A DNA stretch of 64,000 bases from contig LSBP01000001.1 of NCBI GenBank assembly GCA_001577635.1, forward strand, positions 124,001 to 188,000. Direction: 5' to 3'. The notes beneath the pieces were generated by a model. That model saw nothing but the letters and a program-made list of their open reading frames with translations, did not search any database and was not told the DNA's origin. Origin of the DNA: Halomonadaceae bacterium T82-2. GTDB lineage: Bacteria > Pseudomonadota > Gammaproteobacteria > Pseudomonadales > Halomonadaceae. Both the position numbers and the translations under genes were made by a program. Positions 23,844 to 30,068 of the stretch are shown piece after piece; within the stretch, counting starts at the first letter, position 1; each line of letters starts with the position of its first letter.

Positions 23844-25727
23844 TCAGTTCGCCAGAAGCGCGTCGGCCTCGCGCTTGAGCGCGCGCACCCGGGTCTCCAG
23901 CGTCTCGCGATCGGCCGCCTCGGGCGCCACCGGCTCGCCGAAGATCAGCGCCACCCGCGCCCGGAAGCGGCGCGGGCGGGTGGAAAAGGCGCGTCCGTGG
24001 CGATGCGAGGTCCACGAGCCCCACAGCCCGGCCAGCGCCGCCGGCACCACCGGCACGGCATCACGCGCCAGAATCATGTCCACGCCACGCCGGAAGCGAT
24101 GAATCTCGCCGTCGGTGGTCAGGCGCCCTTCCGGGAATACCATCACCACCTCGCCGGCACGCAGCGCCCGGCTCACTTCCGCCATGGCCCGGCGCACGCC
24201 GCCCGGGTCACGGCGCTCGGAATCCACCGGGATCGCCCCGGCCAGACGGAAGAACCAGTTCAGCCAGGGGGACTCATAAATCGGCCGGTCCATCAAAAAG
24301 CGCAGCGGCCGCGGGCAGGCACCGCCGATGATCAGCGCATCCATGAAGCTGACGTGATTGCAGACCACCAGCGCCGGCCCTTCGGCGGGCACCCGGCTGC
24401 GGCCCCGGAAGCGCAGGCGATAGACCAGATGCATCAGGGTGAAGATCGCCAGGCGCAGTACCGCTCGCGGATTGATGATCATCACGCCCAGACAGATGGC
24501 CAGCGCCACGCCCGCCAGCGCGGCAAAGAAGACGGCCAGGGGCAGGTCGAGCAGCGTCAGCAGCACAATGCCGAACAGCGCGGCCAGGATCATGAACAAG
24601 GCATTGAGCAGGTTGTTGGCGGCGATCATTCGCGCTCGGTGGCCGTCGCTGCTGGCCACCTGTACCAGCGTGTAGAGCGGCACGATATACAGCCCCCCGC
24701 CCACGCCGACCAGAGTCAGGTCGAGACTCATGCGCCAGAATGCGGGCATGAGCAGCAGCTCGGACAGTACCGTCTCGCTCCCCGCCAGAGCGGGGCGAAT
24801 CGCAAAATCGAAGCCGCCCAGCGCGATCAACAGCGCGCCCAGCGGCACCAGCCCCAGCTCGAGTCGCCCGGCGGAAAGCCGCGCACAGAGCAACGCCCCG
24901 CCGCCGACGCCCAGCGCGAAGGCACCCAGCAGCCAGCTCACCGCGGTTTCCTGGCCGTGTACCATGTCGCGCACCCAGGCGGGCAACTGGGTCAGGTAGC
25001 AGGCCCCCAGAAACCAGAACAGGCTGATTCCCAGCAACCCCCGGAAGACACGCCGGTGGCGCCAGCTGTCGCGCAGCACGGCGATGCTGCCCGCCAGCGG
25101 CTGCCAGCTGACGCGACCCGGGTCGCTGGACGGTGCCGCCGGCACCGCCAGGCTGGCCAGATACCCCATGACCGCCACGCCGATCAGTGCGGCAGCAATG
25201 GCTCCGCGTGCCAGCGCCCCTTCCAGCGACGCCAGCACGCCGGCCAGCAGCGTGCCCAGCAGGATCGACACGAAGGTGCCCAGATTGACCCAGGCATTGC
25301 CCTTGACCAGCTGGGTGCGCGGCAGATGCTGCGGCAGGATGGCGTACTTGACCGGTCCGAAGAGCGCCGACTGGGTGCCCATCAGAAACAGCAGCGCCAG
25401 CAGCAGCAGGAACTGCTCGAACCATACCGCCGCCGCCGCCAGGGTCATGGTCGCCAGTTCGAGGAGCTTGAGCCGACGCACCAGCACCTGCTTGTCGAGG
25501 CGGTCGGCCAGCGTCCCGCCCCAGGCGGAGAACAGCAGGAACGGCAGGATGAACAGCCCCGCCGCCAGATTGTTGAGCAGCCCCGTGTCCCAGCCGAAAC
25601 GCGGCACGGCGACGAAGGTCAGCAGCAACAGCAGGACGTTCTTGAAAACATTGTCGTTGAAGGCCCCCAGTGCCTGGGTCCAGAAGAAGGGGGCAAACTC
25701 GCGACGCAGCAGCAGCGGACGACTCAT
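23844..25727 (-). CDS. MFS transporter-acyltransferase fusion (LplT-PlsC-like)
   Basis: The 627-residue protein joins an N-terminal 12-segment MFS transporter of the LplT type (RREFAPFFWTQALGAFNDNV) to a C-terminal 1-acylglycerol-phosphate acyltransferase domain. The HX4D motif lies around residues 455-461 (NHVSFMD), and the glycerophosphate motif FPEGRLTTDG around 530. In E. coli, LplT flips lysophospholipid inward and Aas re-acylates it; here both steps appear to be in one chain without the acyl-ACP synthetase module. The start overlaps the stop of the upstream TetR gene (ATGA), so the two are coupled and the regulator likely controls this gene. Confidence 0.88.
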   Translation of the reverse strand: MSRPLLLRREFAPFFWTQALGAFNDNVFKNVLLLLLTFVAVPRFGWDTGLLNNLAAGLFILPFLLFSAWGGTLADRLDKQVLVRRLKLLELATMTLAAAAVWFEQFLLLLALLFLMGTQSALFGPVKYAILPQHLPRTQLVKGNAWVNLGTFVSILLGTLLAGVLASLEGALARGAIAAALIGVAVMGYLASLAVPAAPSSDPGRVSWQPLAGSIAVLRDSWRHRRVFRGLLGISLFWFLGACYLTQLPAWVRDMVHGQETAVSWLLGAFALGVGGGALLCARLSAGRLELGLVPLGALLIALGGFDFAIRPALAGSETVLSELLLMPAFWRMSLDLTLVGVGGGLYIVPLYTLVQVASSDGHRARMIAANNLLNALFMILAALFGIVLLTLLDLPLAVFFAALAGVALAICLGVMIINPRAVLRLAIFTLMHLVYRLRFRGRSRVPAEGPALVVCNHVSFMDALIIGGACPRPLRFLMDRPIYESPWLNWFFRLAGAIPVDSERRDPGGVRRAMAEVSRALRAGEVVMVFPEGRLTTDGEIHRFRRGVDMILARDAVPVVPAALAGLWGSWTSHRHGRAFSTRPRRFRARVALIFGEPVAPEAADRETLETRVRALKREADALLAN

Positions 25728-26338
25728 GCCATTCCCGGTGACGCCCTGAGACCGGCCAGAATGGTGGAGAGCAGCTGGTCGAGCAGTTCGCTCACCTCGA
25801 GCGGCTGCCCCTGCCAGTAGCCCAGGCGCTCGTTCAGCCCCAACTGCACCAGGCCATGCACGCTGCCCCACAGCGTCCGCGCCATGCGGCGGGCGTCGAG
25901 GTCACCGAGCGCCGGCTGGTACTCCTTGAGGGTCGCCTCGACCCGAGTGAAGAGCCCCTCGATCATGCTGTGCTGACGCTGGTCGAGCTCGCCCTCCTGG
26001 GCCAACGGATAGTCGAAGAGCAGCTGCCAGCGGTAGGGCTCCTGCTGCGCAAACTGCCAGTAGGCCAGGGCCAGCGACTTCAGCCGCGGTTCGGGCGGCG
26101 CGTCGTGCAGCCCCTCGACGGCGCCGCCCAGATGCTCCAGGGTCTGGATGTTGACGTGCTGCAACAGATTGTTGAAGCTGCCATAGAGTTTCAGCAGGGT
26201 ACTGGGCGCACAACCGATCTCGCGCGCCAGCGCACGCAGGGACAGCGTGTGCACGGGGTTTTCCCGCAGCCAGGCATCGCATGCCGCCATTACCTGGGCA
26301 TGCAACGCCTCGGGCGCGTGCTGTCTGGGACGTGCCAT
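25724..26338 (-). CDS. TetR/AcrR family transcriptional regulator
   Basis: The 204-residue protein has an N-terminal TetR helix-turn-helix (NPVHTLSLRALAREIGCAPS, then TLLKLYGSFNNLLQHV) and a C-terminal ligand/dimer domain with SVHGLVQLGLNERLG, the WHG-like pattern of one TetR subfamily. The substitution in the helix (LYGSF where most have YRHF or YYYF) is unusual. It is the upstream partner of the MFS-acyltransferase fusion with a four-base overlap, so a lipid-derived ligand is a reasonable guess. No clear operator was identified. Confidence 0.85.
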   Translation of the reverse strand: MARPRQHAPEALHAQVMAACDAWLRENPVHTLSLRALAREIGCAPSTLLKLYGSFNNLLQHVNIQTLEHLGGAVEGLHDAPPEPRLKSLALAYWQFAQQEPYRWQLLFDYPLAQEGELDQRQHSMIEGLFTRVEATLKEYQPALGDLDARRMARTLWGSVHGLVQLGLNERLGYWQGQPLEVSELLDQLLSTILAGLRASPGMA

Positions 26339-26544
26339 GAAATCGCCTCGTCAATCGCCCGTCCATGGGGGACGGCGTGGTCGAACAGTGTTTTCACCCC
26401 AGCATATCGACACCGCGCGCAAACGCAAGCCCGCCGGGGCCCCTTGTGCTACACGGTTTCCCGTGGCGACTGATACCATGCCGCCTGCGACACGACCGGC
26501 AACGGTCGCGCCGCTTCGCTTGCCTATCGAGTTCGGGAGGCCCG

Positions 26545-27231
26545 ATGGCCGGACGCCTGCACATTGCCGACCTGGCACTCAACACCCTGGTGCCGTCGCT
26601 GCAGCGTGACCAGCCGCTGCGCACCAGCCCCAACCGGGCCCCGCGCCATCCGTTGTCGGCGATCCGGCGGGAAAACGGCACGCCCCGTCTCGTCACCCTG
26701 TTCTGGGGGCTGACGCCGCCCTGGCTCAAGGTGCTCGACCATGCGCCGCACTGCGCCCGGGCCGAGTCGCTGGACGAACGCCCGATGTTCCGCGACGCCT
26801 TCGCCGCCCGACGTTGCGTGGTACCGGTCAGCGGCATCTACGCCTGGCGACCCCAGCCACGCATGAAGCAGCCCTACCTGATCACCCGCGCCGATCGCGG
26901 CCCGCTGTTGCTGGCCGCCCTGTGGTGTCGCTACCACACCACCCTGACCACCTGGACCGACTCCACGGCGCTGATCACGGTGGCCACCAGCCCGCTGCTG
27001 AGCCCGCTGACCGACCGCCTGCCGGCGCTCATCGCCGCCGAGGACCTCGCCACCTGGCTCGACCCGGACACTCCGCTGACCACGGCCCGGGGCCTGCTGA
27101 AACCGGCCCCCGTGGAACTGTTGGGCGCATTTCCGGTATCAAGACAGGTAAACGATCCTTCGAATCAGGACTGGGCCTGCGGACGCCCCACCGGCCGGAT
27201 GCTCCGCTGGGACCCCGAACAGGAGAGATGA
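26545..27231 (+). CDS. SRAP-family protein lacking all catalytic residues (pseudo-SRAP)
   Basis: SRAP proteins (YedK/HMCES) crosslink abasic sites in single-stranded DNA through Cys2. The 228-residue product keeps the fold signatures: MxGRLHI start, TSPNRAPRHP, LFWGLTPPWLK, ARAESLDERPMFRDAFAARR, CVVPVSGIYAW, the TDRLPALI segment and a C-terminal VSRQVNDPSNQ. By alignment with YedK the catalytic set is gone: Cys2 is Ala2, Asn75 is Cys70, Glu105 is Ala100 and His160 is Thr156. The ATG at 26545 is five bases after GGGAGG, so Ala2 is not an artefact of start choice. Its TGA overlaps the start of the M16 protease gene. Confidence 0.85.
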   Translation: MAGRLHIADLALNTLVPSLQRDQPLRTSPNRAPRHPLSAIRRENGTPRLVTLFWGLTPPWLKVLDHAPHCARAESLDERPMFRDAFAARRCVVPVSGIYAWRPQPRMKQPYLITRADRGPLLLAALWCRYHTTLTTWTDSTALITVATSPLLSPLTDRLPALIAAEDLATWLDPDTPLTTARGLLKPAPVELLGAFPVSRQVNDPSNQDWACGRPTGRMLRWDPEQER

Positions 27232-30068
27232 TGCCTGCACTGCGATCCCCCCTCGGCGCCTGGGCGCTGGTCATCGTCACCGCGCTCGGCAGCCCTGCGG
27301 TGGCCACGGCGGCCGATGCACCGAGCACCGCGTCGCCCCTGCCGACCTCCGGCGGCGTTATCGTCAGCCCCAACGACAACCGCGACTATCGAAGCCTGAC
27401 CCTCGACAACGGCCTCGAGGTCCTGCTGATCCATGATGCCGATGCCGACAAGGCGGCCGCAGCGATGAACGTGGCGGTGGGCAGCGACCAGAACCCGGAT
27501 GCCGTGCCCGGGCTGGCCCACTTCCTCGAGCACATGCTGTTCCTGGGTACCGACAAGTACCCCGAGGCCGACAGCTACCAGCAATTCATCAGCCAGCACG
27601 GCGGCGACCACAACGCCTTCACCGCCGACCGCGACACCAACTACTTCTTCGATGTCGAGCCGCAGGCCCTCGAAGGCGCACTCGACCGCTTCAGCCAGTT
27701 CTTCGTCGCACCGCGCTTCAACGCCGAGTACGTCGACCGTGAGCGCCATGCCGTGCACTCCGAATATCAGGCGCGTCTGCGCGACGATGCCCGGCGGGTC
27801 AACGAGGCCATGGATCGGGCACTCAATCCCGATCATCCCGCCACGCGCTTCTCGGTGGGCAGCCTCGAGACGCTGAAGGACGGCAAGCAGCCGCTGCGCC
27901 AGTCGCTGATCGACTTCTACAAGGCCCATTACGGGGCGCACGTCATGGACCTGGTGGTCATCGGCCCGCAGCCGCTGGACCAACTGGGCACCTGGGTCCG
28001 CCAGGACTTCGCGGCGGTTCCCGACCGCGGCCTGTCGCGCCCGACGATCCCCGAGGCCCTGGTGACCCCGGACCAGCTGCCAGCCCGACTGCAGGTCCAG
28101 AGCCTCAAGCAGCATCGCCAGGTGCGCTTCGCCTTCCCGATCCCCGACCCGCAGCAGGATTATCGCCACAAGCCGGTGGACTACCTGGCCAACCTGCTCG
28201 GCCATGAAGGCGAGGGCAGCCTGCTGGCGGCCCTGCGCCATGCCGGCTGGGCCGACGGACTGTCCGCGGGCAGCGCCCGCGGCGACGGCGACGATGCCCT
28301 GTTCATGGTCAATGTGGATCTGACCCCCGAAGGCGCCCGCCACCTCGACCGCATCCAGGCCAGCCTGTTCGCGATGATCCAGCGTATCCGCGATAACGGC
28401 ATCAACGCCTGGCGCTATCGCGAGCAGGCCGAGCTCGCCGAGCAGGACTTCCGCTTCCAGCAGCGGGGCGAGCCGATCCACACGGCCAGCAGCCTGGCCA
28501 TGAACCTGGGCTACTATCCCTTGAAGGATGCCCAGTACGGACCCTATCGGATGGACGGCTTCGAGCCCGGCAAGCTGCGTGACCTGCTCGGCCGGCTGAC
28601 GCCGCAGCACCTGTTGCGCGTCTACAGCGGTCCGGATGTCGAGGGTGACAAGACCACCCGCTGGTTCGATGCCCCCTACCGCCTCGCCCGGGTCGATCAC
28701 TGGCCCGAGGCCACGCCGCTCGACGGCCTGGCCCTGCCCGGCCACAACCCCTATATCGCCGATGACCTCGAGGTGAAACCGCTCGAGGCCCAGCCGCCCA
28801 AGGCGCTCGTCGACACCGCCGAGCACACCCTCTGGTACCGGCCTGACAGCCACTTCGGCACGCCGCGGGTGGAGTGGCGCTTCAGCCTGCAGACCCCGGA
28901 CGCCGCCGACTCGCCGCGCGATGCGGTGCTCGCTCGCCTGCTCGCCGGCTGGCTGGGCGACAGCCTCAACGAGGCGCTGTATCCGGCACGCCTGGCCGGC
29001 CAGTCGTTTTCCGCCTACGCCCACGGCCGCGGCATCACCCTGGCCTTCTCCGGCTGGCGCGATCATCAGGACGTGCTGGTGAAACGGGTTCTCGACCAGC
29101 TGAAGACGGCCGCCATCGACGCGGACAGCGTCGCGCGGGTCAAGCTGCAGCTGAAGCAGCAGTGGCAGAACGCCCCGGACTCCCCCCTCTACCAGCAGAT
29201 GCAGCGCACCCTGGGCGATGCCCTGATCCGGCCGAGCTGGTCCCCCGAGACCCTGCTCGCCGCCCTCGACGAAACGTCGCCGGACGCCCTGCGCGCGTAT
29301 CGCCGCCGGTTCCTGGCCGAGTTGCATCTGGAAAGCATGGCCGTGGGCAATCTGAGTGCTGACCAGGCTCGGCAGGTCGACGCGCAGGTCCAGCGAGCCC
29401 TCTCGCCGACCCTCGACGAGACCGGCGTGCCCGCTCTGACGCCGCTGGCCGTGCCCACTACACCGCCCGTGCTGCACCCGGCCTCGACGCGCAACGACAG
29501 CGCCGTGCTGCGCTACCTGCAGGGGCCGGACAGCAGCCTTGCCAGCCAGGCCCGCCTGGCGGTGCTCGGCCAGCTGATTCAGGCGCCCTTCTACAGCCAG
29601 CTGCGCACGCAGGAACAGCTCGGCTACATCGTCAACGCCGGCTACCAGCCACTGCTCGACGCGCCGGGCCTGGGGCTGCTGGTGCAATCACCGAGTACCG
29701 ACGTGGCGACGATCCGCTCGCGCATGGATGCCTTCCTGGCCGACTTCGACAAGCGCATCGCCAGCCTCGACGAGGCGAGCCTGGCGCCCTACCGCAAGGC
29801 GGTGCACGACCGCCTGCTGGAGCGCCCCTCGTCGCTGTCCGAACTGACCGGGCGGCTGTGGCAGGAAACCGTCCACCCGACGCCCGACTTCCAGCGCCGC
29901 CGGCACCTGGCCGAGACGGTCACCGCGCTGACGCCGGAGGACGTTCGCGGCGCCTGGCAGGCCCTGCGCGACAGCACGCCGCTGAGCATCCGTTTCGCCC
30001 CCGGCGACACCGCCAGTGACGTCGGCGAACTGACCGACGGCTTCACGCCGTTGCCGGAAACTCGCTGA
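27231..30068 (+). CDS. Periplasmic M16 family zinc metalloprotease (pitrilysin-like)
   Basis: The 945-residue precursor has a signal peptide (MPALRSPLGAWALVIVTALG, then SPAVATAADA) and the full four-domain insulysin/pitrilysin length. The inverted zinc motif HxxEH is at residues 97-101 (HFLEHMLFLGT), with the third ligand Glu178 in ERHAVHSEYQ. The family segment GGDHNAFTADRDTNYFF is present, and the C-terminal substrate-binding part has QAPFYSQLRTQEQLGYIV. It degrades peptides in the periplasm, presumably. ATG 27231 is preferred over 27228 because AGGAG lies at better spacing. It is coupled to the upstream SRAP-like gene. Confidence 0.93.
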   Translation: MPALRSPLGAWALVIVTALGSPAVATAADAPSTASPLPTSGGVIVSPNDNRDYRSLTLDNGLEVLLIHDADADKAAAAMNVAVGSDQNPDAVPGLAHFLEHMLFLGTDKYPEADSYQQFISQHGGDHNAFTADRDTNYFFDVEPQALEGALDRFSQFFVAPRFNAEYVDRERHAVHSEYQARLRDDARRVNEAMDRALNPDHPATRFSVGSLETLKDGKQPLRQSLIDFYKAHYGAHVMDLVVIGPQPLDQLGTWVRQDFAAVPDRGLSRPTIPEALVTPDQLPARLQVQSLKQHRQVRFAFPIPDPQQDYRHKPVDYLANLLGHEGEGSLLAALRHAGWADGLSAGSARGDGDDALFMVNVDLTPEGARHLDRIQASLFAMIQRIRDNGINAWRYREQAELAEQDFRFQQRGEPIHTASSLAMNLGYYPLKDAQYGPYRMDGFEPGKLRDLLGRLTPQHLLRVYSGPDVEGDKTTRWFDAPYRLARVDHWPEATPLDGLALPGHNPYIADDLEVKPLEAQPPKALVDTAEHTLWYRPDSHFGTPRVEWRFSLQTPDAADSPRDAVLARLLAGWLGDSLNEALYPARLAGQSFSAYAHGRGITLAFSGWRDHQDVLVKRVLDQLKTAAIDADSVARVKLQLKQQWQNAPDSPLYQQMQRTLGDALIRPSWSPETLLAALDETSPDALRAYRRRFLAELHLESMAVGNLSADQARQVDAQVQRALSPTLDETGVPALTPLAVPTTPPVLHPASTRNDSAVLRYLQGPDSSLASQARLAVLGQLIQAPFYSQLRTQEQLGYIVNAGYQPLLDAPGLGLLVQSPSTDVATIRSRMDAFLADFDKRIASLDEASLAPYRKAVHDRLLERPSSLSELTGRLWQETVHPTPDFQRRRHLAETVTALTPEDVRGAWQALRDSTPLSIRFAPGDTASDVGELTDGFTPLPETR

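Follow-up and report, generated by a model that had tools for sequence, protein, structure and literature searches.

The Halomonadaceae carry a SRAP protein that lacks Cys2, and this Cys-less SRAP is real and under strong purifying selection, and is not decaying. In the window (the whole stretch of 64,000 nucleotides that was analyzed), its gene occupies 26545–27231 on the forward strand and encodes 228 amino acids, with MAGRLHIADL as the N-terminus. SRAP (PF02586) was its sole Pfam match (144.7 bits, E 3.9e-42, gathering score 27.1), and the single NCBIfam match of the protein scored 49 bits where the cut-off is 349. We regard a non-crosslinking SRAP pseudoenzyme as the best reading and a fairly probable one, in which the protein would still bind nucleic acid and would have lost the known activity.

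The start of the reading frame, which the first-pass annotation considered fixed by a good ribosome-binding site, proved sound. The Shine-Dalgarno sequence GGGAGG (26535–26540, forward strand) lies 4 nt 5′ of the ATG at 26545, a Shine-Dalgarno core was present within 18 bases 5′ of the start in 93 of 96 clade records (vs. 233 of 960 shuffles), and 20 of the 96 have an in-frame stop no more than 10 codons upstream. The relatives settle the matter because the frame of the window copy itself is open upstream, with an ATG at 26365.

In YedK, the amine of Cys2 makes the imine, opening of the sugar ring is the work of Glu105 and His160, and Glu105 drives imine formation (PMC9436759); HMCES also crosslinks via Cys2 (PMC9436759). 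Cys was described as always the second residue of SRAP proteins, and the Cys, Glu, and His as absolutely conserved, in the consulted part of PMC3765255. The first-pass annotation claimed that Cys2, Asn75, Glu105, and His160 of YedK are replaced in the window protein by Ala2 (26548–26550), Cys70 (26752–26754), Ala100 (26842–26844), and Thr156 (27010–27012; all forward strand), respectively, and our alignments confirmed all four. A phmmer alignment to YedK 6kcq, at about 23% identity, placed C70 on N75 (CARAE/NARVE), A100 on E105 (GIYAW/GWFEW), and T156 on H160 (LTDRLP/IHDRRP). This alignment begins at residue 16, so that the placement of Ala2 on Cys2 comes from the family alignments (MAGR on MCGR). 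Catalytic residues at other positions were looked for and not found, as the sequence alignments hold the four sites in register.

The same replacements are conserved throughout the Halomonadaceae. The core set consists of 96 records, 89 of them distinct, and the distinct count is used because some genomes occur in both collections; it excludes L116, whose frame is broken, L003, which repeats the window, and the sister rows L036–L038. Among these 89 sequences, site 2 is Ala in 65, Thr in 22, and Val and Pro in one each, but never Cys; site 70 (YedK 75) is Cys in 86, and Ile, Asn, and Leu once each; site 100 (YedK 105) is Val in 53, Ala in 14, Ile in 13, and Leu in nine, hydrophobic in all and never Glu; and site 156 (YedK 160) is Thr in 57, Ser in 25, Gly in six, and Ala in one, never His. 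All four sites are non-canonical in 88/89, the exception (L107) having kept Asn75 alone. The hand-chosen canonical comparison set (n = 28) showed Cys in 28, Asn in 28, Glu in 27 and Asp in one, and His in 27 and Thr in one, respectively. It excludes L040, which has Gln at site 75, the short L044, L046, L052 (the same protein as L002), and all of L133–L161, where one group keeps Cys2 and Glu, has His at site 75, and lacks His160. In family f21, a SRAP group (L040, L147, L150, L151, L153, and L156) combines MCGR and Glu105 with a site 75 that is His or Gln, and lacks His160, RRP replacing HxRxP.

The Cys-less SRAP was present in 35 of the 37 genomes of the same family (G000–G036; loci L004–L038) in a sample of 58 genomes that included the window's own, and it was the sole SRAP found in 21 of the 37. 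No SRAP of any kind was found in the remaining two, G030 and G036 (2.7 Mb each). When named genomes were scanned with a 32-row alignment (A1), the best 80 matches formed 79 loci, 65 of which come from the family and span ten genus names (Modicisalibacter, Halomonas, Litchfieldella, Billgrantia, Vreelandella, Chromohalobacter, Kushneria, Aidingimonas, Salinicola, and Larsenimonas); the 14 SRAPs from outside the family among these best matches all have Cys2. The median dN/dS of the Cys-less SRAP was 0.086 (maximum 0.214) over 76 pairs of 85–99.5% identity, which are not independent because species are shared between pairs and one comparison is duplicated; the values for three pairs of canonical copies from the family ran from 0.023 to 0.107. 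The earlier suggestion that selection kept the framework after loss of the active site is thus borne out, and Cys2 in sister species, which would mean recent decay, was looked for and is not kept there. That the window gene is decaying, or reflects an error of start site or assembly, is scarcely credible: the window copy has all four catalytic residues replaced and the frame of one relative (L116) is broken, as such a reading would have it, but ten named genera show replacement at the identical sites, the dN/dS is 0.086, and the start is backed by the Shine-Dalgarno cores and upstream stops of relatives. Decay, a wrong start, and an error in one genome were accordingly ruled out by the residues of relatives, the dN/dS, and the start-site counts. 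The broken frame of the SRAP copy of L116, from Salinicola tamaricis, is either true or a sequencing error.

Whether a canonical MCGR paralogue exists elsewhere in the genome, as the first-pass annotation asked, is answered by two further SRAPs (L001 and L002), both MCGR with all four catalytic residues. They belong to the same Pfam family as the window SRAP but differ from it in keeping these residues; they are 33–34% identical to it, with net charges of -7 and -2, respectively. L002 looks mobile, because it lies within 2801 bp shared at 100% identity with another species (where the locus is L052) and is adjoined by a UmuC-like ORF, recognized by eye; recent horizontal transfer of the 2801 bp is likely. 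The Cys-less SRAP of the species that shares this stretch is just 80% identical to that of the window.

The SRAP fold signatures, noted earlier as well kept, are evident both from the Pfam score and from the predicted structure. The AlphaFold2 model of the window SRAP (78 sequences) had a pLDDT of 92.9 and a pTM of 0.91, and its best PDB match by Foldseek was YedK 6nua (E 3e-18, TM 0.80, over almost the full length), followed in second and third place by the Schiff-base complex of YedK C2A (8d2m), with YedK-AP-DNA and HMCES-DNA entries also at the head of the list. All 21 chains at E ≤ 0.001 were SRAP structures, four lesser matches being recognized as such by the list in PMC3765255. The model thus predicts that the YedK/HMCES fold is retained. 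The window protein resembles YedK (6nua and 8d2m) also in its N-terminal MxGR and in the equivalents of Asn37, Pro40, Trp67, Arg77, and Arg162, but differs not only in the four catalytic residues but also in Arg at the Gly41 position, the His69/Cys70 pair, and an M16 gene 3′ of its own. It matches the human HMCES SRAP domain in fold (TM 0.82–0.84 by query length, predicted model), but has neither the crosslinking Cys2 nor the acid-base pair. It shares the N-terminal Ala2 with the laboratory mutant YedK C2A, which retains Glu105, His160, and Asn75, whereas the natural protein is without these as well.

Among the sites counted, Gly3, Arg4, Asn30, Pro33, Arg34, Trp60, His69, Arg72, Arg90, Lys108, Gln109, Arg158, and Pro160 are invariant (89/89), and Cys70 is nearly so (86/89). 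Arg34 (26644–26646) is a new invariant residue at the position of YedK Gly41, and His69 (26749–26751) precedes Cys70. Arg72 (26758–26760) and Arg158 (27016–27018; all forward strand) align with R86 and R180 of 1zn6 (YedK residues 77 and 162), a pair proposed to contact DNA (PMC3765255). The net charge of the Cys-less core has a median of +4 (range -1 to +8; positive in 85/89), as against -1 (range -8 to +7; 20 positive) for 54 canonical SRAPs that do not belong to the family. Within the family, the charges of ten canonical copies (one protein is present twice) are -7, -2, -2, +2, -4, -10, -3, -5, -2, and -10, and those of the five outer Cys-less rows are -1, +2, +6, +3, and +2. The basic charge argues moderately for a polyanionic ligand, and slightly less so because 8 of the 54 canonical SRAPs are at least +4.

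In a maximum-likelihood tree of 66 chosen rows, the Cys-less rows fall on one side of a single branch (support 99/98), namely 25 core rows, the family sister rows L036–L038, and L146 and L260 of another family. The outer rows read MPGR (L036), MSGR (L037 and L038), MAGR (L146), and MTGR (L260). A long branch leads to L146 and L260, and the composition of L146 is unusual, so their placement is less sure. When 293 genomes of the order were searched with A1, the core orthologues (12 family genomes) scored 359–412 bits, and all remaining matches, including the Cys-less L146, scored no more than 141 bits; the family of L146 and L260 has a Cys-less SRAP in 2 of 40 genomes. An acidic residue is retained at site 105 in the outer lineages (Glu in L036, Asp in L146 and L260), and it is therefore likely that Cys2, Asn75, and His160 were lost first and the acidic residue later. 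In the five outer rows, site 69 is Tyr or Phe and site 70 is Ser, Thr, or Met, and Arg34 occurs among them in L038 only; from these alignments, His69 and Cys70 are features of the core group. Across the class, Cys2 was found in 44 of 50 SRAPs (30 best loci, 19 hand-picked, and L260), the six others being L260 itself, in the Cys-less group, and the divergent L245–L247, L249, and L250, whose starts are uncertain. L152 (G096), which has MSGR with Glu105 kept, lies outside the Cys-less group in the tree and apparently represents a separate, independent loss of Cys2. Residues in the order were read just at fetched loci, and further Cys-less SRAPs may exist there. As for an origin from plasmids or phages, all tblastn matches in 1129 plasmid and 40 phage records were below 60% identity, and this origin was rejected.

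The SRAP gene is followed by an M16 (pitrilysin/insulinase-type) peptidase gene with an HFLEH motif (27228–30068, forward strand), the start of which overlaps the SRAP stop as ATGA, and its Shine-Dalgarno sequence AGGAG (27221–27225, forward strand) is within the last SRAP codons; we infer translational coupling of the two genes from this arrangement. An M16 gene was located 3′ of the SRAP gene in all 100 family loci examined (L004–L038 and L054–L118), with the 4-bp overlap in 46 of 101 rows (L116 counted twice; furthest-upstream M16 start taken). The family gene order is widely kept (CorC-like, MFS/acyltransferase, TetR on the reverse strand, SRAP, M16, SbcB on the reverse strand, MinE, and MinD), and since the whole region is syntenic, the linkage within the family is weak evidence of function. 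The SRAP-M16 pair and the convergent SbcB recur in two genomes of another family (G136 and G326; L162 and L260), at loci where TetR, CorC, and MFS neighbours were not found. Of the M16 loci of the order, the 30 best were fetched; 24 of them lack a SRAP upstream, and in 14 of the 24 an AI-2E-permease-like ORF, recognized by eye, occupies that position. The SRAP protein may share a role with the M16 peptidase. The peptidase keeps HFLEH, and because its N-terminus is signal-like by eye, it is probably exported and unlikely to act as a protease for DNA crosslinks, and the pairing of the two genes is no pointer to DNA.

A TetR-family regulator gene is divergent from the SRAP gene (25724–26338, reverse strand); the regulator is possibly FabR/DesT-like. 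The intergenic region holds a conserved near-palindrome, GAACAGTGTTTTC (26383–26395), of the form GAACAnTGTTT, which has one mismatch to GAACANTGTTC in 74 of 89 sequences and two in 15, whereas none of 445 shuffles had one mismatch or fewer. It is probably the operator of this TetR, which stands next to the MFS-acyltransferase gene, and neither regulator nor candidate operator is put forward as belonging to the mechanism proposed here. At 23844–25871 on the reverse strand, one ORF combines MFS transporter and PlsC-type acyltransferase domains, and many relatives have only a partial match there. The best LexA-like sites in 96 upstream regions had one mismatch in 11, two in 66, and three in 19, and those in 480 shuffles had zero to four mismatches in 1, 35, 272, 171, and 1, respectively. 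Sites with at most one mismatch thus occurred in 11/96 vs. 36/480, a slight excess among related records with no fixed position seen, and in 0/10 canonical family copies, which leaves no positive control. As this LexA excess is not convincing, a role in the SOS response gains no regulatory support from these regions.

YedK C2A still forms a borohydride-trappable imine, via its N-terminal Ala amine, and still cleaves DNA (PMC9436759). Trapped imine was 1.7 for C2A, 0.2 for C2A E105Q, and 1.8 for C2A H160Q, and the lyase rates were 0.05, 0.002, and 0.02, respectively; loss of Glu105 from C2A thus lowered trapping about 10-fold and the lyase 25-fold (PMC9436759). Cys2-blocked YedK E105Q and H160Q gave no strand cleavage but did not lose DNA binding, and N75A alone had little effect at an internal AP site (PMC9436759). 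No triple or quadruple mutant of these sites is reported in the part of PMC9436759 consulted. With the losses combined at all YedK catalytic sites, the window protein would be expected, by analogy with a homologue of about 23% identity, to bind and not to crosslink. The fold and the likely DNA-facing surface would be retained and the residues linking Cys2 to an abasic site gone; binding to nucleic acid would most likely be non-covalent, the ligand would probably be an abasic-site or ssDNA-dsDNA junction structure of the kind kinked by SRAP proteins, and this structure would be shielded or marked reversibly. Several points tell against the pseudoenzyme: the invariant arginines and the charge could serve an RNA or protein partner, Cys-less and canonical SRAPs overlap in their ranges of charge, the upstream regions show no convincing LexA excess, and the N-terminus of the linked M16 product is signal-like by eye. 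A considerably less probable alternative is that the SRAP fold was repurposed away from damaged DNA, e.g., as an RNA- or protein-binding factor regulating the adjacent M16 peptidase. The constant M16 gene downstream (100/100 family loci), the recurrence of the pair in another family away from its usual neighbours, the 24/30 M16 loci of the order without upstream SRAP, and the lack of a convincing LexA site all suit this alternative, but the proposed DNA-contact arginine pair is invariant and no clear new surface appears beyond Arg34, His69, and the charge.

The protein may not be wholly inert, given the acidic site 105 of the outer lineages and the imine that C2A E105Q still forms (0.2 vs. 1.7; PMC9436759). 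Since both C2A and C2A E105Q form it, residual chemistry is possible in the window protein. In its fullest form, which we think unlikely, the free amine of Ala2 or Thr2, after Met removal, would react with the AP aldehyde to form a short-lived Schiff base, assisted by the new adjacent His69/Cys70 pair, and the outcome would be either a reversible link or weak AP lyase activity. The C2A imine is trappable and lyase-active and that of C2A H160Q forms as fast, and because residue 75 of YedK makes a hydrogen bond to the residue 2 backbone (PMC9436759), Cys70 should adjoin the N-terminal amine. His69 (89/89) and Cys70 (86/89) are also strongly kept. The residues seen at site 2 in Cys-less rows (A, T, V, P, and S) would all permit Met removal; these are, however, single-step codon neighbours, so that the pattern is weak evidence. 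Site 105 is hydrophobic in 89/89 core sequences, a change to be read against the drop in trapping and lyase seen with C2A E105Q (PMC9436759), and the five outer Cys-less rows have neither Cys70 nor His69. A bolder variant, to which we give very little credence, is a split nucleophile, in which the Ala2/Thr2 amine would form the imine with the AP aldehyde and the thiol of Cys70, next to it at the former Asn75 position and assisted by His69, would close a reversible N,S-acetal; if true, the thiazolidine chemistry of one cysteine would be divided over two residues.

A literature search, which read titles and the beginnings of abstracts and covered few subscription papers, found neither a Cys-less SRAP group nor a Halomonas SRAP. 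This selected, family-wide group, which occupies a constant chromosomal position in a salt-loving bacterial family, separates the structure of SRAP from its crosslinking in nature and is a natural counterpart of the laboratory C2A, E105, and H160 mutants. It poses the question of what cellular job is done by a SRAP unable to form the known crosslink.
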